Part shown: positions 43,713 to 55,895 of the stretch, piece after piece
How the letters are laid out: every line of letters begins with the position of its first letter
Position numbering within the stretch: position 1 is the stretch's first letter
NCBI RefSeq assembly: GCF_026130545.1
Contig: NZ_JAMOIM010000029.1
Coordinates: 1 to 60,949, forward strand
Direction: 5' to 3'
DNA length: 60,949 bases
From: Lichenifustis flavocetrariae
Lineage (GTDB): Bacteria > Pseudomonadota > Alphaproteobacteria > Rhizobiales > Beijerinckiaceae
Notes under the pieces: model-generated
Seen by the model: only the letters and a program-made list of their open reading frames with translations
Told to the model about the DNA's origin: nothing
Databases searched by the model: none
Program-made: the position numbers and the translations under genes

Positions 43713-45107
43713 ATGACGTTCGACGCTATGGTGCGCCAGATGCCCTATACCTCCGAATATCCCTATTCGACCGTCGCCCTGGTGCAGGACGAGATCGGCG
43801 GCCAAACCTACGAAGCCTCGGGCGTTCTCATTTCTCCGGATGAATTGCTGACGGCCTCGCACGTTGTCTATGAGGCTGGGGTTGGCACGGCGAGCTCGGT
43901 CCTGGTCGCTCCCGGCTACAATCAGGGTAGCGAGCCTTACGGCGTCCTGGAAGGCACGAATTTTCATTACAATGCCGTCAACGACGCCAACGATCTCATC
44001 GGCCTCGCCGACTCGCAGTCGGACTATGCCGTCATCCACCTCAGCCGCCCGGTCGCGGCCGGCACCATGCAACTCGGCGTCAACGTGCCGGGCGGCTATG
44101 TCAACGTCAGCGGCTATCCGGCAAGCGCGGCAGGTGCGCAGACGACCATCAACGAAATCGTCAGCAAGGATCCGACCTACAGCCTTTTCGACGGGGTAGA
44201 CACCGGGTCGGGATCGAGCGGCAGTCCACTTTGGTACGACCAGAACGGCGCGGCCACGGTCATCGGCGTGGTCTCCTCGGGCGACGGCACGAACGGATAT
44301 GATTCCCAAATCACGTCCGCGGCGGCGAGCCTGATCCGGGGTTGGGTCAATGCGGATGACTTTCCATCACCTTTGATCGATGTCCCCTATTATCTCCTGA
44401 ACAATCCGGATGTCGAAAACGCGGGCGTTTCGGCCGTGGCTCATTACAATGGCTCCGGGTGGCACGAAGGCCGAGACCCAGATCCGCTATTCTCGACGAA
44501 CGGATATCTCGACACCAATACGGATGTCGCAAGAGCCGGCGTCAATCCGGTCCAGCATTATGACCAGTCAGGCTGGAAGGAAGGGCGCGATCCTTCCGCA
44601 GAGTTTTCCACGATCCTCTACGAGCAACGAAACCCCGATGTGGCCGCGGCAGGCATCGATCCCCTCAGCCATTATCTCTCGTTCGGCGAAGCGGAAGGGC
44701 GCACGGCTTTGCCTGCCATAGGGCATGGCGACGAGATCGGCGACTTCGATCCGCACTATTATCTGCTCGCGAATCCCGACGTGGCACGCGCCGCCATGGC
44801 ATCCGGAAACCCGGATGCTTTCGCGTACCAGCACTACAGTACCTTAGGCTGGCATGAAGGCCGGAACCCGGACGCCTATTTCAACACGGACTACTACCTC
44901 GCCCAAAATCCTGATGTGGCTGCGGCTGGCGTCGATCCCTTGACCCATTACGAAGCATCGGGGTGGCACGAGGGGCGAAACCCATCCGCGGCTTTCAGCA
45001 CGCACGGCTACGAGACCGCCAATCCCGACGTTGCGGCGGCTGGCGTGGATCCGCTGCAGCATTTCCTGGCTTTCGGCGCTTGGGAGGGGCGCAACCCGGT
45101 GGCTTGA
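43713..45107 (+). CDS. Trypsin-like serine protease with six NPDVAAAG-type repeats
   Basis: A 464-residue two-part protein. Residues 15-212 resemble a trypsin-fold protease: ISPDELLTASHVVYEA (His50), SQSDYAVIHL (Asp104) and DTGSGSSGSPLWYD with Ser169 complete a catalytic triad. Residues 217-464 hold six repeats of about 40 residues built on YYLLNNPDV, AAAGVDPLTHY and GWHEGRNP. The repeats end exactly at the C-terminus. No N-terminal signal peptide is visible, so export by a type I or other C-terminal route is likely; such repeats are frequent in large type I-secreted proteins of alphaproteobacteria. No secretion genes are adjacent. Target unknown. Confidence 0.75.
   Translation: MTFDAMVRQMPYTSEYPYSTVALVQDEIGGQTYEASGVLISPDELLTASHVVYEAGVGTASSVLVAPGYNQGSEPYGVLEGTNFHYNAVNDANDLIGLADSQSDYAVIHLSRPVAAGTMQLGVNVPGGYVNVSGYPASAAGAQTTINEIVSKDPTYSLFDGVDTGSGSSGSPLWYDQNGAATVIGVVSSGDGTNGYDSQITSAAASLIRGWVNADDFPSPLIDVPYYLLNNPDVENAGVSAVAHYNGSGWHEGRDPDPLFSTNGYLDTNTDVARAGVNPVQHYDQSGWKEGRDPSAEFSTILYEQRNPDVAAAGIDPLSHYLSFGEAEGRTALPAIGHGDEIGDFDPHYYLLANPDVARAAMASGNPDAFAYQHYSTLGWHEGRNPDAYFNTDYYLAQNPDVAAAGVDPLTHYEASGWHEGRNPSAAFSTHGYETANPDVAAAGVDPLQHFLAFGAWEGRNPVA
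44361..45104 (+). repeat. Six tandem protein repeats of the YL-NPDVAAAG-GWHEGRNP type
   Basis: Repeat units start near residues 217, 259, 297, 345, 389 and 427 of the protease protein. Units 5 and 6 are the most alike, sharing NPDVAAAGVDPL and EGRNP; units 1 and 2 are more degenerate; unit 3 is followed by a linker of about 13 residues. Unit 4 carries a six-residue expansion (MASGNPDAFAYQ). Confidence 0.8.
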
Positions 45108-45383: not shown

Positions 45384-46631
45384 ATGCGATCATCCACCCC
45401 CGTCGCGATTGTAGGTGCAGGCCCCTATGGGCTGTCGGTCGCAGCGCATCTTGCGGGCGCCGGTTTGAGGCCGCGGATCTTTGGAGATGCCATGCAGACA
45501 TGGCGATCCTTCATGCCGAACGGGATGGTGCTTAAATCGGAGGGGTTCGCCATGAACCTTTCCGACCCGAGTGGAAGCTACACGCTCGAAGCGCATTGCC
45601 GCGACCAATCGATTCCCTACCAGGCCACGGGATGGCCGGTCCCGGTCGAGGTCTTCGCGGGCTATGGCGAAACGTTCCAGAAGCGGTTCGTGCCGCAACT
45701 GGAAGAGACCGAGGTCCGCCACATCGCCCGCGGGGATCATGGCTTGGCCCTTACGCTGGCGACGGGAGAAACCGTCGAGGCACGCCACGTGGTGCTGGCC
45801 ACGGGCATTCGCCCCTACGCAAGGACCTCGCCCCAGCTGTTGTCCGATCTGCCGTCCGACCGCGTCACACATAGCGGCGATCAAGGCGACATGGAGCGCT
45901 TTCGCGGATGCAAGGTCGCGGTGATCGGCGGCGGGGCCTCGGCGATGGACGCCGCCGCCGCGCTGCACCGCTCAGGCGCGACGGCGGTTGCCATCACGCA
46001 TCGCCCGGAGGTCCGCTTCTACGCACCGAACGGCTTCCGAGACCGCTTCCTGGCACCGTTGACCCCGCTGGGACCGGGCTGGAAGAAGCAGCTCTGCTGC
46101 AAATGGCCCGATCTGTTCCACGCGCTGCCACAGCGCGTCCGGCTCGATATCGTGGCCCGCTATCTCGGTCCCTCCCCTGCCTGGTCGGTCCGCGACATCG
46201 TCCGCGACCATGTGGACCTGCGCCTCAGCACGCATTTGACGCGGGCCGAAGTCACGGGCGACCAAGTTACGCTCACGATGAACGCAGCCTCCGGTGGCAC
46301 AACGACACTCGCGGTCGATCACGTGATCGCGGCGACGGGCTACGATGTGGATATCGACCGGCTGACGCTCCTCGACGCGTCGCTGCGTGCCGACCTGCAG
46401 CAGGATGGCAAATCGTTGCGGCTCAACTCTGCCTTTGAGACGCGCGTCAAGGGTCTCCACGTTGTGGGCACGCCTGCCGCTGCGAGCTTCGGCCCCATGC
46501 TCCGGTTCGTCTGCGGCAGCGCCTTCGCGGCCCGCAGAACGGCCGGCGAGATTTGCCGTCGGGAGGGTGCCCAGCGCATGCCCGCCACTCAGGCCCTCAC
46601 CCGCGGCGCCATGCCGCTAAGCGAGGCCTGA
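45384..46631 (+). CDS. FAD-dependent oxidoreductase (flavin monooxygenase-like)
   Basis: A 415-residue protein with an FAD-binding GxGxxG at the N-terminus (VAIVGAGPYGLSVAAHLAGA), a second dinucleotide site at VAVIGGGASAMDAAAALH near residue 175, and LATGIRPYA and AATGYDVDIDRL motifs typical of the flavin-monooxygenase/lysine hydroxylase superfamily. An FxGxH-like WRSFMPNGMVLKSEGFAMNL segment follows the first site. Its C-terminal half closes with GLHVVGTPAAASFGPMLRFV. It would use NAD(P)H and probably hydroxylates an amine or oxidises a small molecule. The ATP-grasp gene starts five bases after its stop, so the two work together. Confidence 0.78.
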   Translation: MRSSTPVAIVGAGPYGLSVAAHLAGAGLRPRIFGDAMQTWRSFMPNGMVLKSEGFAMNLSDPSGSYTLEAHCRDQSIPYQATGWPVPVEVFAGYGETFQKRFVPQLEETEVRHIARGDHGLALTLATGETVEARHVVLATGIRPYARTSPQLLSDLPSDRVTHSGDQGDMERFRGCKVAVIGGGASAMDAAAALHRSGATAVAITHRPEVRFYAPNGFRDRFLAPLTPLGPGWKKQLCCKWPDLFHALPQRVRLDIVARYLGPSPAWSVRDIVRDHVDLRLSTHLTRAEVTGDQVTLTMNAASGGTTTLAVDHVIAATGYDVDIDRLTLLDASLRADLQQDGKSLRLNSAFETRVKGLHVVGTPAAASFGPMLRFVCGSAFAARRTAGEICRREGAQRMPATQALTRGAMPLSEA

Positions 46632-46636
46632 CCAAC

Positions 46637-47869
46637 ATGCGCCGCCTTCGCGTCCTATTCGTCTCGATGACGAACGACGTCGGCTCAGACCGCCTCATCG
46701 GCGACATGAGGCGGGCGGGCGGGCGCTGTGCGGTTCTGGCTCCACCGGGTGCCTTCGCGACGCTCGTCCGAAGCGTCATGGCGCATTTTCCACTGCAGAG
46801 AGGATTGGGTGGCATCGCCGCCGCATTCGACCTGTCGAGATCGCTTCAATCCGCGGTCGATGTCTGGTGTCCGGATCGGGTGATCCCCCTCGACGATCTC
46901 GCAGCGACTCTGCTGCGAACGATCGGCGGCGACCACCAGACGCCAGCTCCTCTTCGCAACCTGCTCATCGAGTCGTTCGGCGCGCCTGCAGGCTATCCCG
47001 CGGCCTGCCAGCGTGTCGCCCTGATGCGAGTTGCTGAAAAAGTAGGCGTTCGAATACCCGCTTTCAGTTCGAGTCGTGACATCGGACGCCCCCCATTTCC
47101 CTTGATGGTCAAGCGCGACCAATCCTCAGGGTCAGGAGGTGTTCTCCGCGTGGAAAACGAGGCAGACCTCAAAAAGGCTCTCAGGTCTGCGCGTTTCAAG
47201 ACCGCCGCCAAAGTAGGGTTGATGCGCGTTGCCGGGTTCCGGCAGGCCCTCACGCCGGTCCTGTTGCAGCACGTCGTCGCGGGACGCCTGGCGATGCAGA
47301 CCGTTGCGTGCCGGGACGGGCACGTGATCGACTGCATCGGCTTCGAGGCCGTGGAGATCCATCCGCAGAAACGGGCGAGCACCATCCTTCGCGCCACGAT
47401 CCACGCCGAGATGGCCGAGTCGGCACGGCGAATGGTCGCGGCCCTGGGCTGCTCGGGCTTTGTCAGCTTCGACTTCATCGTGGATGCGGAGAACCGTGCG
47501 TTTCTCATCGAGATGAACCCCCGTCCTATCGGCAGCACGCATTTGGGGCGGCTGTTCGGGCATGATCTCGTGAGGGCATTTGTGAGGGGCCAGGCCCAGG
47601 ACGGGCACACGGCCTTGCTGCCGCCTGAAACAGCCGTCGCGCTGTTTCCCAAGGAACTCGAGCGGGATCCCGCAAGCGCCTACCTGGCCGGAAGCAATCC
47701 GGTCGTACACGACGTACCGGAAACCGAGCCTGCGGTTTTGGCTGCCTATCTGGCGCATTTGAAAGCCGTCCATCCCACGAGGCATGCCGAGATCGAACGT
47801 CACGTGCCGGCATCGAGAAGTGTGCCGGCACGCGGTCTAGGGTTTGCCGGTACGACCGAGCTCTGCTGA
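46637..47869 (+). CDS. ATP-grasp domain protein of unknown substrate
   Basis: A 410-residue protein. The N-terminus (RRLRVLFVSMTNDVGSDRLI) is a Rossmann-like domain; the central part has PFPLMVKRDQSSGSGGVLRV, an ATP-grasp lysine and glycine-rich loop, and LRATIHAEMAESARRMVAAL leading to FVSFDFIVDAENRAFLIEMN with the metal-binding Glu and Asn, then PRPIGSTHLGRLFGHD. These enzymes join a carboxylate to an amine, thiol or another nucleophile through an acyl-phosphate. It starts five bases after the flavin enzyme gene, an operon arrangement. Product unknown; a small peptide- or siderophore-like molecule is one possibility. Confidence 0.75.
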   Translation: MRRLRVLFVSMTNDVGSDRLIGDMRRAGGRCAVLAPPGAFATLVRSVMAHFPLQRGLGGIAAAFDLSRSLQSAVDVWCPDRVIPLDDLAATLLRTIGGDHQTPAPLRNLLIESFGAPAGYPAACQRVALMRVAEKVGVRIPAFSSSRDIGRPPFPLMVKRDQSSGSGGVLRVENEADLKKALRSARFKTAAKVGLMRVAGFRQALTPVLLQHVVAGRLAMQTVACRDGHVIDCIGFEAVEIHPQKRASTILRATIHAEMAESARRMVAALGCSGFVSFDFIVDAENRAFLIEMNPRPIGSTHLGRLFGHDLVRAFVRGQAQDGHTALLPPETAVALFPKELERDPASAYLAGSNPVVHDVPETEPAVLAAYLAHLKAVHPTRHAEIERHVPASRSVPARGLGFAGTTELC

Positions 47870-47967
47870 ACGAGCCTTCATTCAGTTCCACAAGGCATGC
47901 ACCTTGCTTGACCGCACCTCATCGACGCGCCATGTCGGAGCGTGCGCGTGCGAGGAGGCAAGATCAC

Positions 47968-48975
47968 GTGAGACAGCTGACGAACATCGTGCTTGGCGCA
48001 GCGATGCTGGCGGGCCTTCTGCCGACCGGCGCCGCATTGGCGCTCGACAAGGTGACCTTCGGGACGAATTGGCTGGCCGAGGCCGAACATGGCGGCTTCT
48101 ACCAGGCCGTTGTCGACGGCACCTACGCGAAATACGGCCTCGACGTCACAATCCTTCCAGGCGGCCCGCAAGCCAACAACGGGCTCCTTTTGCCCACGGG
48201 CAAGATCGATTTCTATATGGGCGGCAACATGATCCAGGCCTTTTCGGCCGTGGAGCAGAACGTGCCGACACTGGTCGTCGCGGCCTTCTTCCAGAAGGAT
48301 CCGCAGTGCCTCATGGCCCATCCGGGCGTCGGGCACGACACGTTCACGTCCTTGAAGGGCGCGCCGATCTTCCTTGGTAAGGAAAGCCTTGCATCGTTCT
48401 ATCTCTGGATGCAGTCCGCCTTCGGCTTCTCCGAGAACGACGTCAAGCCCTATACGTTCAACACGGCACCCTTCATCGCCGACAAATCCTCCGTGCAGCA
48501 GGGCTACGTGACGTCAGAGCCTTATGAGGTGGAGCAACAGGGTGGATTCAAGCCCAACATCTTCCTGCTGGCCGACCAGGGTTTCTCGACCTACGCGACC
48601 ACCATCGAGGCGCGGCTCGACACCGTCACCAAGAACCCGGATATCGTGCAGCGCTTCGTCGATGCCTCGGCAATTGGCTGGTACAATTATCTCTACCACG
48701 ACAATGCCAAGGCCAATGCGGCGATCAAAAAGGACAATCCGGACATCACCGACGCACAACTGGCTTTCGCGATCGCCAAGATGAAAGATTACGGGATCGT
48801 CGATTCGGGAGACACGAAGACGCTCGGCATCGGCGCGATGACGGACGACCGCCAAAAGGCCTTCTACGACGAGATGTCCAAGGCCGGCGCCCTGCCGGCC
48901 GGCATCGACTACAGGAAAGCCTACACGCTGCAGTTCGTGAACAAGAAGGTTGGCCTGGATCTGCTGCCGAAGTGA
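47968..48975 (+). CDS. ABC transporter substrate-binding protein, NMT1/THI5 type
   Basis: A 335-residue periplasmic protein. A signal peptide (LTNIVLGAAMLAGLLPTGAA) precedes the NMT1/THI5-like fold: VTFGTNWLAEAEHGGFYQAV near residue 30, YAKYGLDVTILPGGPQANNG, LPTGKIDFYMGGN, and LKGAPIFLGKESL. Family members bind pyrimidines, taurine-type sulfonates or thiamine precursors (ThiY). The GFYQA segment with later GGP and EPYEVEQ is most like ThiY-type pyrimidine binders, but this is a visual judgement. GTG 47968 follows GAGGAGG. First gene of a six-gene overlapping operon. Confidence 0.84.
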   Translation: MRQLTNIVLGAAMLAGLLPTGAALALDKVTFGTNWLAEAEHGGFYQAVVDGTYAKYGLDVTILPGGPQANNGLLLPTGKIDFYMGGNMIQAFSAVEQNVPTLVVAAFFQKDPQCLMAHPGVGHDTFTSLKGAPIFLGKESLASFYLWMQSAFGFSENDVKPYTFNTAPFIADKSSVQQGYVTSEPYEVEQQGGFKPNIFLLADQGFSTYATTIEARLDTVTKNPDIVQRFVDASAIGWYNYLYHDNAKANAAIKKDNPDITDAQLAFAIAKMKDYGIVDSGDTKTLGIGAMTDDRQKAFYDEMSKAGALPAGIDYRKAYTLQFVNKKVGLDLLPK

Positions 48976-49823
48976 TTGAACCGGTCCCGCCTCCCGCTGA
49001 CCCGGTGGGATTTTCGACGATGACCACCGTCTTGGAACGTTCACCGACGGGCGACGCGTCGGACGTCGGTCGACGTCTTGTCAGCCTGCGCAGCGTGTCC
49101 AAAACCTTTCCGAACGGGACTGTCGCGCTCAGCCGTCTCGATCTCGACGTGCGAGCCGGGGAATTCCTGTCGCTGATCGGCCCCTCGGGATGCGGAAAAT
49201 CCACGGCTCTGCGCATGCTGGCCGGGCTGACCGAGCCGTCGTCTGGCGAGATCGCGTGGCACGGAACGCGGCCTGAGATCGGCTTCGTGTTCCAGGAGCC
49301 GACACTGATGCCTTGGGCGAGCGTGTTCAACAATGTCTGGCTTCCGCTACGGCTCCGCGGCGTCGGCAAGGTGGAGGCGCGCACGCGCATCGACGAGGCG
49401 CTGGCCATGGTCGGCCTCAGTGCCTTTGCGAAGAGCTACCCGCGCGAACTCTCGGGCGGCATGAAGATGCGGGTTTCGATCGCCCGCGCCCTCGTGCTCC
49501 GCCCGCCCCTTCTCCTGATGGACGAGCCTTTCGCCGCCCTCGACGAGATCACTCGGTTCAAGCTCAACAACGACCTGATCCGCTTGGCGGCCGAACTCGG
49601 CACCACAGTCGTGTTCGTGACCCATTCGGTCTACGAGAGCGTTTACCTCTCGACCCGGATCGTCGTGATGGCGGCGCGCCCTGGCCGCGCCGTTGCCGAA
49701 ATCGGGGTGGACGCCCCGCTGGAGCGCACCGAGGATTTCCGGTCGACGCCTGTCTATACCGAGACCTGCCGGCGCGCCTCCCGGGCCCTGCATGAAGCGA
49801 TGACCGACGAGGATCAGCTGTGA
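48972..49823 (+). CDS. ABC transporter ATPase (nitrate/sulfonate/pyrimidine type)
   Basis: A 283-residue single-domain ATPase. Walker A is GPSGCGKST, the Q loop is VFQEPTLMPWASVFNNVW, the signature LSGGMKMRVSIARAL, Walker B LLLMDEPFAALDE and the switch VTHS. The CGKST and MPW features are those of the SsuB/TauB/ThiZ group. GTG 48972 overlaps the binding-protein stop by GTGA; an ATG at 49020 is an alternative that drops sixteen unconserved residues. Partner of the flanking binding protein and permease. Confidence 0.9.
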   Translation: MIEPVPPPADPVGFSTMTTVLERSPTGDASDVGRRLVSLRSVSKTFPNGTVALSRLDLDVRAGEFLSLIGPSGCGKSTALRMLAGLTEPSSGEIAWHGTRPEIGFVFQEPTLMPWASVFNNVWLPLRLRGVGKVEARTRIDEALAMVGLSAFAKSYPRELSGGMKMRVSIARALVLRPPLLLMDEPFAALDEITRFKLNNDLIRLAAELGTTVVFVTHSVYESVYLSTRIVVMAARPGRAVAEIGVDAPLERTEDFRSTPVYTETCRRASRALHEAMTDEDQL

Positions 49824-50686
49824 GTGCGCTCGATCCCGCCGATCCGGCAATCGAGCCGCCTGCAGGCTTCGCGGTTCAACCGTCGCGTGGCATGCGTCGG
49901 TTATGGCCGCAGAAAGTGGTCGAGATCCTGCTGCCGGCCCTCATTTTCATCCTGGCTCTGGTGGCATGGGAGGTGGTCGTCCGGCTTCGTGGCATCCCGC
50001 CCTATATCCTGCCCGCCCCGAGCCTGATTGGCGCCACCCTGGTCAAGGACTGGCCGATCCTGTCCGGCTCCCTCATCGTGACGCTGTGGACCACCGTGGA
50101 AGCCTTGCTGATCGCGGTGGCGGGAAGCCTGGGCCTGGCCCTCGTTTTCGCGCAATCGAAATGGATCGAGCGGTCTTTCTTCCCCTTCGCGGTCGTCATG
50201 CAGGTGACGCCGGTGGTCGCCATCGCGCCGCTTCTGTTGATCTATCTCGATTCCAGAACCGCCGTGCTGGTCTGCGCCTTTCTGGTCGCCTTCTTCCCGA
50301 TCCTGTCGAATACCGCCCTCGGCCTCGCCTCGGCCGACCACAACCTGATCGAACTGATGGAGCTCTACAGGGCGCCGAAGTGGCGGCAGATCCTCCTGTT
50401 GCGATTACCGGCCGCCCTGCCGTTCTTCCTCGGGGGCCTTCGAATCGGGGGCGGACTTGCGCTGATCGGAGCCATCGTGGCCGAGATCGCGGCCGGCTCG
50501 GCCGGCCAAGGGTCGGGATTGGCGTTCCGGATCGTCGAGGCTGGGTTCAGGCTCAACATCCCGCGGATGTTCGCGGCCCTCACTCTGATTTCACTGACCG
50601 GCATCCTGATTTATGTGGCCTTCGCGATGCTGAGCTATGCGCTCTTGTATCGATGGCACGACAGCGCCCGCTCACGCGGCGTCTGA
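49820..50686 (+). CDS. ABC transporter permease (nitrate/sulfonate/pyrimidine type)
   Basis: A 288-residue inner-membrane protein of about six hydrophobic segments. LLPALIFILALVAWEVVVRL opens it, PPYILPAPSLIGATL is the usual loop, and the coupling helix is ELYRAPKWRQILLLRLPAAL (EAA motif), with GLRIGGGLALIGAIVAEI after it. SsuC/ThiX-like. Its GTG overlaps the ATPase stop by GTGA. Together the three genes form an importer whose ligand should be acted on by the downstream enzymes. Confidence 0.9.
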   Translation: MSALDPADPAIEPPAGFAVQPSRGMRRLWPQKVVEILLPALIFILALVAWEVVVRLRGIPPYILPAPSLIGATLVKDWPILSGSLIVTLWTTVEALLIAVAGSLGLALVFAQSKWIERSFFPFAVVMQVTPVVAIAPLLLIYLDSRTAVLVCAFLVAFFPILSNTALGLASADHNLIELMELYRAPKWRQILLLRLPAALPFFLGGLRIGGGLALIGAIVAEIAAGSAGQGSGLAFRIVEAGFRLNIPRMFAALTLISLTGILIYVAFAMLSYALLYRWHDSARSRGV

Positions 50687-50699
50687 TGGAGCAGATTGA

Positions 50700-52016
50700 A
50701 TGACGGACGCGCTCCGGGTTCCCCCACACCTTCGCCGCTGGAGCCTGAAGGGCGCTCGCGTGCCCGGTTGCCTTCTTGAAAAACCGGTGGCCGCGCCGAA
50801 CCCGGAAGGGCTCGTCGACGTGGACATGATCATCGCCAATGGCACGATCGAATCGATCAGCCCGGCTTCAACTGAGCCCGCCGCAATCCCGGCCTTCATC
50901 CAGCCGGGCCTCGTGGTGCCGGCCTTCGTCGATGCGCATACCCATCTCGACAAAGGCCATATCGCACCCCGCGCACCGACGTCCGGCACTTTCGCGGGTG
51001 CCCTCGAGGCCGTCCCACGAGACCGTGAGGCGCACTGGTCGGCACCTGATGTCGAGACCCGCATGCGCTTCGCGATCGAGGCCGCTTACGCTTACGGCAC
51101 TCGCGCGATCCGCACCCATCTCGATTGCAAGGACCGGCAGACGCGGATCTCCTGGCCGGTCTTCGCCGCACTCCGGGAGGAGTGGCGCGACCGGGTCGAT
51201 CTCCAGGCGAGCCCGCTGTTTCCGATCGACCTCGCGCTCGACGCGGCACATCTGCGCGACGTGACCGAAATGGTCTATGAGTTCGGCCACTGCCTCGGCG
51301 CCGCGACCTTTCCGGGTCCCGGTTTGCAGGCCGGCCTCGACACTCTGTTCCAGCTGGCCGGCGACAAGGGCTGGGAGCTCGACTTCCATGTCGACGAAAC
51401 CGACGATCCCTCCGTCAACACGCTCGCAGTGATCGCCCAGACGGCCCTCGACCACAAGTTCAACGGCCGCATCTTGACCGGCCATTGCTGCACGCTCTCG
51501 CTGCTGCCGGAGGAGGAAAGGAAACGCACCATCGATCTCGTGGCCCGGGCCGGCATCGGCATCGTGTCGCTCCCGATGTGCAACATGTACCTGCAGGATC
51601 GCTACCCCGGCCGCACCCCGCGCTGGCGCGGTATCACGGCGCTCCACGAGCTGAAGGCCGCCGGCGTGCCTGTGACCATTGCGAGCGACAACACGCGCGA
51701 CCCTTTTTACGCCTATGGGGATCTCGACATGGCGGAAGTCTGGCGCGTCGGCACCCGCATCACGCAGTTCGATCACCCGTTCGGGGATTGGGCCGCCGCC
51801 GTGTTCAGCACGCCAGCCGAAGCCCTCGGGCTCGATGGCGCGGGCCTCCTGCGGGTCGGGGCATCCGCGGACTTCGTCGTGTTCCCGGCGCGTTCCCTGT
51901 CCGAGTTCATGGCCCGGCCCGGCATGCCGCGCTCCGTCATCCGGCAGGGCCAAACGCTGACGGCGCGCGTGCCGGACTACAGCGCACTCGACCACCTCGT
52001 AGGTCTGCGCCCATGA
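50700..52016 (+). CDS. Cytosine-deaminase-like amidohydrolase
   Basis: A 438-residue metal-dependent amidohydrolase of the CodA branch. Metal ligands are in FVDAHTHLDKGH, the DFHVDETDDPS motif provides the conserved histidine and glutamate that in CodA move the proton, GHCCTLSLL gives a third histidine and IASDNTRDPF the final aspartate. CodA deaminates cytosine to uracil; relatives act on other amino-pyrimidines, creatinine or isoguanine. Thirteen bases after the permease, four-base overlap (ATGA) with the next gene. The substrate is probably whatever the preceding importer brings in. Confidence 0.85.
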   Translation: MTDALRVPPHLRRWSLKGARVPGCLLEKPVAAPNPEGLVDVDMIIANGTIESISPASTEPAAIPAFIQPGLVVPAFVDAHTHLDKGHIAPRAPTSGTFAGALEAVPRDREAHWSAPDVETRMRFAIEAAYAYGTRAIRTHLDCKDRQTRISWPVFAALREEWRDRVDLQASPLFPIDLALDAAHLRDVTEMVYEFGHCLGAATFPGPGLQAGLDTLFQLAGDKGWELDFHVDETDDPSVNTLAVIAQTALDHKFNGRILTGHCCTLSLLPEEERKRTIDLVARAGIGIVSLPMCNMYLQDRYPGRTPRWRGITALHELKAAGVPVTIASDNTRDPFYAYGDLDMAEVWRVGTRITQFDHPFGDWAAAVFSTPAEALGLDGAGLLRVGASADFVVFPARSLSEFMARPGMPRSVIRQGQTLTARVPDYSALDHLVGLRP

Positions 52017-53434
52017 CCGCACGGTACGATATCGCCGCCCTCAAGACCGCCCTCGACGGGATCAAGACGGAAGACAATGCTGCGCTCGTGAAGCAGAAGA
52101 GTCGCGACTTCTTCTGGTATTCACCCGTCCTCAAGCGACAGCTGGAGCATGTGGTCGGCGACCTCGTCGTCACGCCGCGCACGCGGGACGAGGTGGTGCG
52201 GACGCTTGCGGAAGCCCACAGGCTTGGCGTCCCGGTCACGCCGCGCGGCTCGGGCACCGGCAATTACGGTCAGGCGATGCCGCTTTCGGGCGGCGTCATC
52301 CTGAACCTTGCAGAGATGCGCAACATCACCCGCATCGCTCCCGGCCGGGTCACCTGTGAGCCGGGCGCCATCCTGTCCGACATCGATGCCGCGACGCGGG
52401 CTCATTCGGGCCAGGAGCTGCGCATGCATCCCTCGACCTACGCGACCGCCTCGATCGGCGGCTTCATCGCAGGAGGCTCAGGGGGGATCGGCTCGATCAA
52501 CTGGGGCGGCCTGCGCGATCTCGGCAACATCCTCAGCGTCGAAGTCGTCACGATGGAAGCCGCGCCGCGGGTCCTGCGCCTCACCGGCGCCGACTTGGCC
52601 AAGGTCACCCATGCCTATGGCACGAACGGTATCATCACCGAAGTCGAGATGCCCCTGACCGCCGCCTATCCTTGGGTCGACGTCATCGTCGGTTTCGACG
52701 ACTTCGCCGAGGCGGCGCGGTTCGGCAACGCGCTGGGCGAGCAGGACGGCCTTCTCACCAAGCTGATCACACCGATCGCCGCACCCATTCCGCAGCGATA
52801 CTTTTTGCGCCACAAGCGTTTTCTGCCCGACGGCAAATCGATTGTCCTGGTCATGGTGGCCGATCACGCCAAGGACGCTTTCAACCTTTTTCTGCGGCGC
52901 TTCTCCAAAGCCGAAGTGCTGTTCGATGCGAGCCAGATCCCGGAGCAGGATCGTGAAGGGCTGCCGGTCAACAACGAGCTCTCGTGGAACCACACGACAT
53001 TGCGGGCGCTCCGCGTCGATCCGGCCATCACCTATCTGCAGGTGCTCTACCCGTTCCCGCATCAGCTCGACCTCGTGACGAAGATCCACGCGCGGTTCGG
53101 TGACGAGGTGATGGGCCACCTCGAATTCGTGCGTTTCGACGGCAAGATCACCTGTTTCGGCCTGCCGCTCGTCCGCTTCACCACCGAGCCGCGCCTCGAC
53201 GAAATCATTCGTATCCATGAGGACATGGGCGCACCGATCTTCAACCCGCACCGCTACACCCTGGAAGAGGGCGGCATGAAGCAGACGGATGCGCTGCAGC
53301 TCGCCTTCAAACGCGAGGCCGACCCCCAGGGACTGCTCAACCCCGGCAAGATGGTGGCCTGGGACGATCCGGCCTTCGATTTCGCGACCGGCAAGACCTA
53401 TCTTTATCCAAGCCTCGCAGCCACGCTGGCATGA
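52013..53434 (+). CDS. FAD-linked oxidase/dehydrogenase (GlcD/PCMH type)
   Basis: A 473-residue flavoprotein. The PCMH-type FAD domain has VVTPRTRDEVVRTLAEAHRL, PVTPRGSGTGNYGQAMPLSGG, and ASIGGFIAGGSGGIGSINWG, followed by LRLTGADLAKVTHAYGTNGI. The C-terminal cap ends in RLLNPGK-like DPQGLLNPGKMVAWDD. Relatives oxidise 2-hydroxy acids, aryl alcohols or sugar lactones. ATG 52013 overlaps the deaminase-like gene by ATGA; an upstream extension of the open frame lies inside that gene and is not used. The likely role is oxidation of the deaminated product; electron acceptor unknown, possibly the next gene's product. Confidence 0.85.
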   Translation: MTARYDIAALKTALDGIKTEDNAALVKQKSRDFFWYSPVLKRQLEHVVGDLVVTPRTRDEVVRTLAEAHRLGVPVTPRGSGTGNYGQAMPLSGGVILNLAEMRNITRIAPGRVTCEPGAILSDIDAATRAHSGQELRMHPSTYATASIGGFIAGGSGGIGSINWGGLRDLGNILSVEVVTMEAAPRVLRLTGADLAKVTHAYGTNGIITEVEMPLTAAYPWVDVIVGFDDFAEAARFGNALGEQDGLLTKLITPIAAPIPQRYFLRHKRFLPDGKSIVLVMVADHAKDAFNLFLRRFSKAEVLFDASQIPEQDREGLPVNNELSWNHTTLRALRVDPAITYLQVLYPFPHQLDLVTKIHARFGDEVMGHLEFVRFDGKITCFGLPLVRFTTEPRLDEIIRIHEDMGAPIFNPHRYTLEEGGMKQTDALQLAFKREADPQGLLNPGKMVAWDDPAFDFATGKTYLYPSLAATLA

Positions 53435-54027
53435 GGGTCCTGGTCGTCGCGGCACACCCGGTCGAAACGAGCTTCGTGTCGGCCCTGCATGGCCGCGCGG
53501 TGCAGATCTTGCGGGCCGGCGGGCACGTGGTCGACGATTGCAACCTTTACGCCGAAGCCTTTGATCCGATCCTGTCGCGACAGGATCGGATCGACTACCA
53601 CGACACGGCCGTGAACGTCCGGAACGTTGCACCCTATGTCCGACGGCTGCAGGACGCGGAGGCTCTGCTGTTCATCCATCCGGTGTGGAATTTCGGGTTC
53701 CCGGCGATCCTCAAGGGTTTTGTCGATCGGGTCTTCGTTCCGGGTATCGGGTTCGGGCTCGACCAGGATGGGAAGCTGTCCCCACAATTGACCCATGTGA
53801 AGCGCTACGGCGCGATCTGCACCTACGGGGCCTCGCGCTGGACGGCCTTCCTGATGGGGGACCCGCCGCGCAAATTCATGACGCGGGGCATGCGGGGATA
53901 TATTCCCCTCAACAAGCCTTGCACCTATCTGGCCTGCTACGACATGAACCACACCACGCCAGAACGACGCGCCACTTTCCTGAATAAAATGGAACGCGGG
54001 CTCCAAAGCTGGTCAAGCCCGAATTAG
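53431..54027 (+). CDS. Flavodoxin-fold NAD(P)H:quinone oxidoreductase
   Basis: A 198-residue protein of the NQO1/MdaB/KefF group. VLVVAAHPVETSFVSALHGR is the FMN phosphate loop, EALLFIHPVWNFGFPAILKG the conserved HPVWNFG-type motif, and KGFVDRVFVPGIGFGL plus ICTYGASRW complete the site. It transfers two electrons from NAD(P)H to quinones. ATGA overlap with the FAD oxidase gene; last gene of the overlapping set. A 30-base perfect palindrome falls within its coding sequence, at 53563-53592. Confidence 0.87.
   Translation: MRVLVVAAHPVETSFVSALHGRAVQILRAGGHVVDDCNLYAEAFDPILSRQDRIDYHDTAVNVRNVAPYVRRLQDAEALLFIHPVWNFGFPAILKGFVDRVFVPGIGFGLDQDGKLSPQLTHVKRYGAICTYGASRWTAFLMGDPPRKFMTRGMRGYIPLNKPCTYLACYDMNHTTPERRATFLNKMERGLQSWSSPN
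53563..53592. repeat. 30-base perfect palindrome inside the quinone-reductase gene
   Basis: GATCCGATCCTGTCG is followed immediately by its exact reverse complement, without any loop. It encodes DPILSRQDRID, in a region where the family has FxPxLs-like residues. Confidence 0.9.
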
Positions 54028-54085
54028 GGGCGTAAACCACGCGGACCGCGCGGCTCTCTGACGCGCTTCGTGCCCCGACAGGTCG

Positions 54086-54994
54086 ATGTCCACTCAAGCC
54101 GTTCCGCTCGCCTCGCTCGATGCCCGGAGCGGGGAAGAGCGGCGCTCGCGCCGGATCGCCATCCTGCTCATGTGCGTCACCATGGCGTGCTACACCGCGA
54201 CCGATTCTTCGGCGAAATTCCTGGCACCTCACCTGCCGCTTTGGCAGATCGTTTGGGCGCGCTATCTCGGGGCCACGCTTTTCGCACTCTGCCTCGCCAA
54301 TCCGATCAAGCACCCCAACATGCTGCGCCCCGAGCGGCTCGGCCTGCAATTGGTGCGCTCCCTGTTCCTGCTGACCTCGACGATTCTGAGCTTCATCGCC
54401 GTGCGCTATCTGCAACTCGCGGAAACGACGGCCATCTTTTTTGCACTGCCGCTCGCCATCGCGCTCGCGGCGGGTCCTATCCTGGGTGAATGGGTGGGCC
54501 CGCGGCGGTTCGCCGCGATCCTTGTGGGCTTCACGGGCGTGCTCGTCGTGGTGCGCCCCTGGACCGGAACATTCCATCCCGCGATGGGCCTCTGCGTCGC
54601 CAACGTGATCGTGTCGGCAGGCTACAATATGCTGACGCGCGTCGTGGCACAGCGCGACCGCGCGCTGACGACGCTCATCTATTCGACGCTGGTCGGGGCT
54701 ATCCTGCTGACGCCGATCGTTCTCACGCACTGGGTCGCACCGGACAGCCTGCAGGTGACGGCCGTCATGGTCTTCATCGGCGTCGTGGGTGCCTTCGCGC
54801 ACTGGCTGCTGATCCTCGCTCATGCACGGGCACCGGCCTCGATCCTGGCACCCTTCACCTACACCCAACTGATCTGGGCGTCTCTTTCCGGCCTTGTCGT
54901 GTTCGGCGACGTGCCAAAACCATCGACGCTTGCGGGTGCCGGCATCGTGGTGCTGGCCGGCCTGTATCTATGGTGGCGCGAGCGCGGGACATGA
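54086..54994 (+). CDS. EamA-family (DMT) transporter
   Basis: A 302-residue protein with about ten membrane segments in two EamA halves. The first half runs from RIAILLMCVTMACYTATDSS to VRYLQLAETTAIFFALPLAI; the second from LCVANVIVSAGYNMLTRVVA to IVVLAGLYLWWRER. DMT members export amino acids, nucleobases or metabolites; riboflavin and S-adenosylmethionine members also exist. It lies 58 bases after the operon of the deaminase-like enzyme on the same strand, and 47 bases before the thiD leader, so it may export or import a related compound. Confidence 0.85.
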   Translation: MSTQAVPLASLDARSGEERRSRRIAILLMCVTMACYTATDSSAKFLAPHLPLWQIVWARYLGATLFALCLANPIKHPNMLRPERLGLQLVRSLFLLTSTILSFIAVRYLQLAETTAIFFALPLAIALAAGPILGEWVGPRRFAAILVGFTGVLVVVRPWTGTFHPAMGLCVANVIVSAGYNMLTRVVAQRDRALTTLIYSTLVGAILLTPIVLTHWVAPDSLQVTAVMVFIGVVGAFAHWLLILAHARAPASILAPFTYTQLIWASLSGLVVFGDVPKPSTLAGAGIVVLAGLYLWWRERGT

Positions 54995-55041
54995 AGCGCT
55001 CGGCCCTGGGCGGCCACGGCGAGGGATGCTAGGAGGGCCAA

Positions 55042-55074
55042 ATGGCAGAAAGATCTCACACAGGCTCGCGATGA
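55042..55074 (+). CDS. Possible 10-residue leader peptide coupled to thiD
   Basis: An ATG at 55042 lies five bases after a strong AGGAGG site (55031-55036) and opens a ten-codon frame (MAERSHTGSR) whose TGA overlaps the thiD ATG as ATGA. The thiD start has only a weak site of its own. This suggests that ribosomes entering at the leader deliver translation to thiD. The peptide itself has no regulatory codon run. Confidence 0.45.
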   Translation: MAERSHTGSR

Positions 55075-55895
55075 CCCCCAACCTTCTCTCGATCGCGGGA
55101 TCGGACCCGAGCGGCGGCGCCGGGATCCAGGCGGACCTCAAGACCTTTTCGGCCTTCCGGTGTTACGGCATGGCGGCGCTCACGGCGCTCACGGCGCAAA
55201 ACACCCGCGGCGTCACCGCCGTGCATGTTCCCCCGCCGCAATTCCTCAAGGCACAGATCGACGCGATCTATGCGGATATCCGGGTCGATGCTGTGAAGAT
55301 CGGCATGCTGGCCACCGGCGCCATCGTCTCCGTCGTGGCCGATCGATTGAAGACGTATGGGCAGAACCTGATCGTCATCGATCCCGTACTCGTCGCGACG
55401 AGCGGAGACAGTCTTGGCGCCCCCGATGTCGTCGAGGCCCTGCGGCGCGACCTTCTGCCGCTCGCGACCCTGGTGACGCCCAACCTGCCGGAAGCGGCGC
55501 GCCTTGCCGAGCGGCCCATTCCTCATGACGTAGCCGGCATGAGGAATTTAGCCGAGATCATCCATGAAAACAGTGGCGCTGCCGTGCTGATCAAGGGCGG
55601 CCATCTCAATGGCCCTGAATCGACCGACATCCTGTTCGACGGACACGAGCACACGGTGTTTTCGGCCGAGCGGGTCGAAACCCCCAACACGCATGGGACT
55701 GGTTGCACCCTGTCGGCCGCCATCGCGGCGTGCCTGGCCCAGGGCGCGAACCTGATCGAAGCCATCGAAGCCGCCAAAGACTATCTCACCGAGGCTCTTC
55801 TGCGCAGCGGCAGTCTCAAGGTCGGTGGCGGCCATGGCCCCGTGCAGCATTTTCACGCGCTGTGGCCCGAAACCGACCACGAACGACTACAGTGA
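55071..55895 (+). CDS. thiD: Hydroxymethylpyrimidine/phosphomethylpyrimidine kinase
   Basis: A 274-residue ribokinase-fold kinase. LLSIAGSDPSGGAGIQADLK is the pyrimidine-binding loop, KIGMLATGAIVSVVADRL and IDPVLVATSGDSLG follow, and the ATP/anion-hole motif is TPNTHGTGCTLSAAIAA with the catalytic aspartate region replaced as usual by GTGC. It phosphorylates HMP and HMP-P for thiamine synthesis or salvage. ATG 55071 is the only start that fits the family; the strong AGGAGG upstream serves a ten-codon frame that overlaps it. No TPP riboswitch is recognised. No other thiamine gene is in the window. Confidence 0.93.
   Translation: MTPNLLSIAGSDPSGGAGIQADLKTFSAFRCYGMAALTALTAQNTRGVTAVHVPPPQFLKAQIDAIYADIRVDAVKIGMLATGAIVSVVADRLKTYGQNLIVIDPVLVATSGDSLGAPDVVEALRRDLLPLATLVTPNLPEAARLAERPIPHDVAGMRNLAEIIHENSGAAVLIKGGHLNGPESTDILFDGHEHTVFSAERVETPNTHGTGCTLSAAIAACLAQGANLIEAIEAAKDYLTEALLRSGSLKVGGGHGPVQHFHALWPETDHERLQ

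Follow-up and report, generated by a model that had tools for sequence, protein, structure and literature searches.

The window analysed here is the whole of contig NZ_JAMOIM010000029.1 of Lichenifustis flavocetrariae (60,949 nucleotides; assembly GCF_026130545.1), and it carries, between 47.9 and 54.03 kb, an operon of six genes on one strand that joins an ATP-binding cassette (ABC) importer to an amidohydrolase, a flavin adenine dinucleotide (FAD) oxidase and a flavodoxin-fold reductase. Our reading, to which we give a probability of roughly 55%, is that the operon is catabolic and serves the breakdown of a pterin-type N-heterocycle. The evidence consists of protein families, gene linkage and a residue pattern, from which we infer the substrate, the later steps and each reaction in the organism. 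The six-gene set is a conserved and widespread module, within which the amidohydrolase and oxidase genes travel as a pair. The genes of the operon, and the two that follow it, are as follows.

47908..48975, + strand: substrate-binding protein of the NMT1/THI5 (ThiY-like) class (NMT1, PF09084); its in-frame open reading frame (ORF) opens at TTG 47908, and the start is predicted
48972..49823, + strand: ABC transporter ATPase (ABC_tran); GTGA overlap with the binding-protein gene
49820..50686, + strand: ABC transporter permease (BPD_transp_1); GTGA overlap with the ATPase gene
50700..52016, + strand: amidohydrolase of 438 residues, probably of pterin-deaminase type (Amidohydro_3, PF07969; PRK07583)
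52013..53434, + strand: FAD oxidase/dehydrogenase (FAD_binding_4; PDB 6v42 family); ATGA overlap with the amidohydrolase gene
53431..54027, + strand: flavodoxin-fold NAD(P)H:quinone reductase-like protein (Flavodoxin_2); ATGA overlap with the oxidase gene
54086..54994, + strand: EamA permease (EamA), accessory; 58-base gap after the reductase gene
55071..55895, + strand: thiD, hydroxymethylpyrimidine (HMP)/HMP phosphate (HMP-P) kinase; 76-base gap after the EamA gene, outside the conserved module

Four of the five junctions within the six-gene set are 4-base overlaps, and the only non-overlapping one, between permease and amidohydrolase, is a gap of 13 bases. The initial annotation had listed these six genes, mostly overlapping and followed by EamA and thiD, and both list and order agree with the ORFs and their Pfam and NCBIfam matches. 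It had placed the start of the binding-protein gene at 47968; our searches with the binding protein started at 47989.

The module is found well beyond this genome. A scan of named genomes gave at least 554 confirmed relatives, and the best 80 loci were analysed; these come mostly from Mesorhizobium and Bosea and are thus non-independent, and 78 of them extend 5 kb to the left and 75 extend 3 kb to the right. The amidohydrolase gene lies immediately 5′ of the oxidase gene in all 80, and the reductase gene no more than 700 bases 3′ of the oxidase in 77. The three transporter genes are upstream in 53 and anywhere in the locus in 60, and the complete six-gene set is present in 50; the search for the same gene order in other genomes, which the initial annotation had proposed, recovered it widely. 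A creatininase-family gene (57/80) and a Rid gene (56/80) are frequent additional members, while a MarR gene occurs in 19 loci and an EamA gene accompanies the module in 18, mostly in Bosea. The pairing of amidohydrolase and oxidase was also surveyed in 199 genomes of the order, including the window's own, with thresholds of E<=1e-70 and E<=1e-60, respectively. Each gene was detected in 67 genomes and both in 62 (Fisher p=3e-39, the kinship of the genomes being ignored), and the oxidase lay directly downstream on the same strand for 58 of 69 amidohydrolase matches. The 11 matches without an adjoining oxidase include weaker homologues and one match at a contig end. These counts of co-occurrence and adjacency indicate that the two genes move as a pair. 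In an oxidase search of 99 genomes of the family, an amidohydrolase gene adjoined all 20 of the closest homologues (L039-L058, 65-78% identical), and transporter genes were directly upstream in fewer than 20 of these stretches.

The initial annotation's view of a coherent unit of import, deamination and flavin oxidation for an N-heterocycle is supported, and the module is present in alpha-, beta- and gammaproteobacteria. On plasmid pRL12 of R. johnstonii 3841 the run comprises paoABC-xdhC side genes, a creatininase gene, a LysR gene, binding protein, ATPase, permease, 'cytosine deaminase', oxidase, reductase and RidA; a literature search on the tags pRL120323-pRL120327 returned nothing useful. 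Every part of the module stands in a single gene run, together with a TetR gene, in Alloyangia and on a Comamonadaceae plasmid, and variants occur in Mameliella, Roseateles, Nitratireductor and Paroceanicella. In Klebsiella, Pantoea and Rahnella the module comes with a PDR/VanB-type reductase, and the annotation there shows no NAD(P)H-dependent oxidoreductase.

In other genomes the module also includes a creatininase-fold hydrolase and a Rid protein. In Mesorhizobium loci and in the same-genus relative L039 their genes are upstream of the operon and divergent from it. The window genome has the pair on a separate contig (C169:32817-33968), where the Rid protein shares 69% identity with the Rid that is linked to the operon in a same-genus relative. 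The Rid proteins are of the family named endoribonuclease L-PSP (PF01042), and the one module member scanned scored 28.4 bits against a RutC cut-off of 169.1. These partners, like the published pterin deaminases discussed below, lay beyond the view of the initial annotation.

The amidohydrolase is labelled a cytosine deaminase by the NCBIfam equivalog model PRK07583 (562.6 bits, cut-off 403), and its nearest solved relatives are cytosine deaminases. On this basis the operon could import cytosine or 5-methylcytosine, deaminate it to uracil or thymine and oxidize the product. The pocket speaks strongly against it, and we regard such a salvage function as very improbable. In an alignment of 105 homologues (some genomes being represented twice), the metal-ligand and catalytic residues His61, His63, His214, Glu217, His246 and Asp313 are invariant, whereas the substrate pocket of CodA is lost: Gln156 is found in none, Asp314 is replaced by Asn in 105/105, and Trp319 is retained in none, with Phe in its place in 104/105. 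The register near position 156 shifts between two alignments, and Gln is absent there in both; a comparison of the window enzyme with 10 module members likewise showed Asn314 and Phe319 in every one of the 10. According to the accessible parts of the two sources, Gln156 and Trp319 are retained even in AtzC (PMC4577212), and residue 314 (numbered 315 there) is critical for specificity (PMC6186785). The residue pattern thus excludes a CodA-type site: enzymes that lack Gln156 and carry Asn for Asp314 throughout the 105 homologues do not fit the label 'cytosine deaminase', and a true cytosine deaminase was rejected on the pocket residues. The 'CodA-like' assignment of the initial annotation, taken as cytosine deamination, is contradicted accordingly. 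The creatininase-fold and Rid partners would, moreover, be superfluous for cytosine salvage.

A pterin substrate is suggested by the enzymes already described in this family. The available part of You et al. (2022) describes the cloning of a pterin deaminase (PDA) of 399 residues from Variovorax sp. F1, which shares 37% identity with Arad3529 of A. radiobacter K84, groups near predicted 'cytosine and creatine amidases' and is followed by an 'endoribonuclease' gene; the 5′ primer used encodes MKLEAVR (PMC9513972). The figure legend of a preprint, the portion seen, places the pterin deaminase CodAch2 (citing Fan 2013) in PF07969 together with CodA and AtzC (PMC13081902). As far as these partly accessible sources go, both reported pterin deaminases therefore fall in the same amidohydrolase family as the window enzyme. 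We take Fan 2013 to be the paper on Arad3529, and CodAch2 hence to be Arad3529; the enzyme was reportedly suggested by Fan et al. to start an undescribed pterin degradation pathway.

Homologues of this kind occur within the module itself. Genome G642 belongs to family f86, which we take as probably Burkholderiaceae because three of its proteins (amidohydrolase, creatininase and binding protein) share 71-94% identity with their counterparts in the Comamonadaceae plasmid module. In G642 (L196), a PDA-like gene of 400 residues and a Rid gene stand beside a quinone reductase, a binding protein, an FAD oxidase, a permease, an ATPase and a creatininase gene, and this neighbourhood makes the PDA-like protein a member of the module. 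Close homologues of this second amidohydrolase of G642 (E<=1e-90) were found in 19 of 399 f86 genomes. Directly downstream of the PDA-like gene is a Rid gene in 5 of the 19 loci and an FAD oxidase gene in 9; within the short stretch examined, a creatininase-family gene was seen in 3 and neither Rid nor oxidase in 5. Three of the Rid-linked proteins (L200-L202, from G642, G774 and G996) have aligned spans of 396-400 residues and start with MTTLEALR, MKLQALR and MKLESLR, and the F1 PDA 5′ primer matches the beginning of their genes at 15-17 of 21 bases. Identity between the window enzyme and the 19 PDA-like proteins is 33-39%, which is comparable to the published 37% between F1 PDA and Arad3529 (PMC9513972, available part). 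The window has no adjacent Rid gene, its genome's copy being on C169, so the layout of a 399-residue enzyme followed by Rid is one of the homologues only.

A redox step after deamination would fall to the oxidase and the reductase. The oxidase matches PDB 6v42 with 713.8 bits over 463 residues and is of the same family, and the nearest module-locus oxidase is 76.5% identical to that structure; its score against the glycolate oxidase model GlcD is 74.9 bits, below the NCBIfam cut-off of 567.9. The flavodoxin-fold reductase is closest to quinone reductases. We propose that the ThiY/THI5-type binding protein, a family assignment made directly from profile matches, would with its ABC transporter import a presumed pterin-type ligand. 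The PF07969 amidohydrolase would then remove the exocyclic amino group hydrolytically, probably converting pterin to lumazine, a deamination reported in the literature for Arad3529 and F1 PDA. The FAD enzyme of the 6v42 family may then dehydrogenate either the ring or the side chain; the reductase may deal with electrons or with a quinonoid intermediate. The creatininase-fold hydrolase and the Rid protein, encoded here on C169, could be responsible for ring opening and for processing what results. More tentatively, and at somewhat less than even odds, the eight genes together (three for the ABC importer, the PF07969 deaminase, oxidase, reductase, creatininase-fold hydrolase and Rid) might form a complete and biochemically undescribed route for the pteridine ring, one that would be a common sink for folate-derived pterins in soil and rhizosphere. 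The deaminase family is already known; for the rest of the pathway, our literature search, in which subscription journals were mostly outside coverage, found no account of steps beyond deamination.

Several observations weigh against this interpretation. The window enzyme has 438 rather than 399 residues, and its identity of ~36% to the PDA-like group is distant enough for a changed substrate. The link to pterins is drawn from the family, length, N-terminus and neighbouring gene of homologues. Of the published primers, the 5′ one, allowing one mismatch, was found three times in the 399 f86 genomes, always in unrelated genes. The reverse primer is described as located in the gene that follows, but it agrees with the Rid genes compared at 11/21 bases, no better than shuffles, and reaches at most 13/21 downstream in the 19 f86 loci, which is chance level. 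In the annotated neighbourhoods inspected, FolD of the Bosea-type loci was the one folate or pterin gene that could be identified next to the module. A plasmid variant in A. tumefaciens F2 has the creatininase, oxidase and transporter genes, and the amidohydrolase is absent from the stretch examined. For 6v42/6v43 the literature search found neither a paper nor a substrate. The Rid protein of the window genome has PAS where others have PAR and so lacks the Arg whose role in imine-hydrolysing Rid proteins is described in the part of the source available to us (PMC4433059). The C169 creatininase-family protein, as aligned, is without Glu122 and Trp174 of creatininase and has HGG at the HYE of the solved enzyme, the second substrate-binding Trp being missing. 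Glu122 is a metal ligand of creatininase and Trp174 presumably the substrate-binding Trp.

The same residues bear on a creatinine degradation function. CodA-like creatinine deaminases exist, and a creatininase-family partner in 57 of the 80 loci would fit such a pathway. These creatininase residues are missing from the window genome's copy, and two copies from relatives, at 81.9 and 86.2 bits, stay well under the 235 bits that the creatininase model requires; a true creatininase was rejected for the C169 partner, and creatinine is to our mind the most improbable of the substrates weighed here.

Salvage or breakdown of the thiamine pyrimidine HMP, with thiD as a partner, was among the possibilities raised by the initial annotation and is supported by the binding protein. 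Among solved structures, its profile matched six distinct sequences at E<=0.01, all of them 4nmy, THI5/THI13 or the FAMP-binding 3ix1, so the predicted ThiY-type binder is upheld; a nitrate or sulfonate binder, the case that the annotation had named as contrary to its view, was not seen, the score against the sulfonate binder model SsuA being 18.5 bits (NCBIfam cut-off 163.5). The thiD product is also genuine by score (326.8 bits against the HMP-P kinase model, NCBIfam cut-off 204.95), and its gene begins 76 bases after EamA. Its linkage to the module is nevertheless confined to the window and the same-genus stretch L039 among the 32 stretches opened, and is found in none of the best 80 named loci. 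In both genomes thiD is followed by hemH, and this shared order suggests an old chromosomal arrangement rather than function. No Rfam match, THI riboswitch included, was obtained in the window or in its 47.0-56.2 kb region, and none fell in the module of six relatives, where only tRNAs, ar45 and a speF leader were matched, the latter two far from the module. The thiamine reading was rejected on these grounds and appears highly unlikely; what stands of the earlier interpretation is the N-heterocycle operon, without its link to thiamine.

A less specific alternative is that the deaminase has diverged from the pterin deaminases and acts on another small N-heterocycle, such as a substituted pyrimidine, a 2-aminoimidazolone or creatinine analogue, or a modified purine. 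We consider this less likely than a pterin-type substrate, and the larger share of the remaining probability goes to it. The limited identity of the window enzyme to the PDA-like group is in its favour, as is the fact that the pocket differences from CodA name no ligand; next to the Klebsiella module is a PRK12393 amidohydrolase, a relative of 2paj and of 8-oxoguanine deaminase, and a related cluster (L065) has an AtzE-family amidase, a RutB-like hydrolase scoring below the RutB cut-off and a Rieske-oxygenase-like protein. Against it stands the shared family of the two reported pterin deaminases, and the one characterised Asn314 member found to have another substrate, AtzC, differs at Glu217, although no systematic search for such members was made. 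Degradation of a pterin-type compound remains the reading we prefer.

Related clusters and neighbouring genes were seen alongside. In the Bosea loci (such as L097, L105 and L134) FolD divergently adjoins the amidohydrolase or the pair, ~1.5-2.5 kb upstream of the oxidase; the call was made for one representative (L134) with Pfam and NCBIfam, and the ORF cluster contains likely shadow ORFs in other loci. This proximity is clade-specific and is not counted as evidence. A second FAD oxidase, 49% identical, lies with a quinone-reductase-like partner at G000:C115:12114-19914 (L161). Beside them are a phosphonoacetaldehyde hydrolase, a TIGR03364 FAD oxidoreductase, two genes that by eye look like NasT/NasS, and a NarK-like transporter, which scores 292.7 bits (cut-off 311.7). 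The related cluster L065 (G028:C86) has two FAD oxidases and, by eye, Rieske-type and creatininase-like proteins. Beside the Klebsiella module (L172:4913-7339) are a 2-oxoglutarate/Fe oxygenase, the PRK12393 amidohydrolase and a second binding protein. PRK12393 as a required partner was rejected: at E<=1e-120 it is absent from the window genome and present in 8 of the 199 order genomes. The window genome does encode a weaker homologue at C169:40991, some 7 kb away from the creatininase and Rid genes; it scores 366.7 bits, below the cut-off of 543. Upstream of the operon on the same strand (45384-47869), flavin-monooxygenase-like and ATP-grasp-like ORFs were noted by eye; 38 bases separate the end of this pair from the earliest start available to the binding protein. 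A single ORF at 43713-45107 appears by eye to have a trypsin-like N-terminal region followed by imperfect HYxxxGWHEGRNP-type repeats.

If the pterin interpretation is true, many Proteobacteria would be seen to carry, under the present labels 'cytosine deaminase, FAD-binding oxidoreductase, creatininase', a pathway that can be tested for its part in the environmental fate of folate and pterins. The curated equivalog name PRK07583 would be corrected, the partners that act after deamination would be named, and the 6v42 oxidase family would gain a concrete list of substrates.

Among known systems, the Rut pyrimidine pathway also combines a flavoenzyme, a reductase, an amidohydrolase and a Rid protein for catabolism and offers an analogy to the module, although the protein families differ. 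The operon oxidase is of the same family as the FAD/FMN-containing dehydrogenase of PDB 6v42/6v43. E. coli CodA and the operon enzyme are alike in fold family, metal ligands, Glu217, His246 and Asp313 and unlike at Gln156, Asp314 and Trp319, which are replaced in the homologues. AtzC, the N-isopropylammelide isopropylaminohydrolase, is a PF07969 relative with Asn at the 314 position, but, in the portions of the literature available, it keeps Gln and Trp and has His at Glu217, where the operon enzymes keep Glu. CodAch2/Arad3529 and the window enzyme are both of PF07969, as far as the preprint legend describes the former. The accessible part of the F1 PDA paper covers deamination and not the oxidase, creatininase-fold or transporter steps, and the enzyme it describes resembles the module homologues in its length, its N-terminal pattern and its Rid-type downstream gene.

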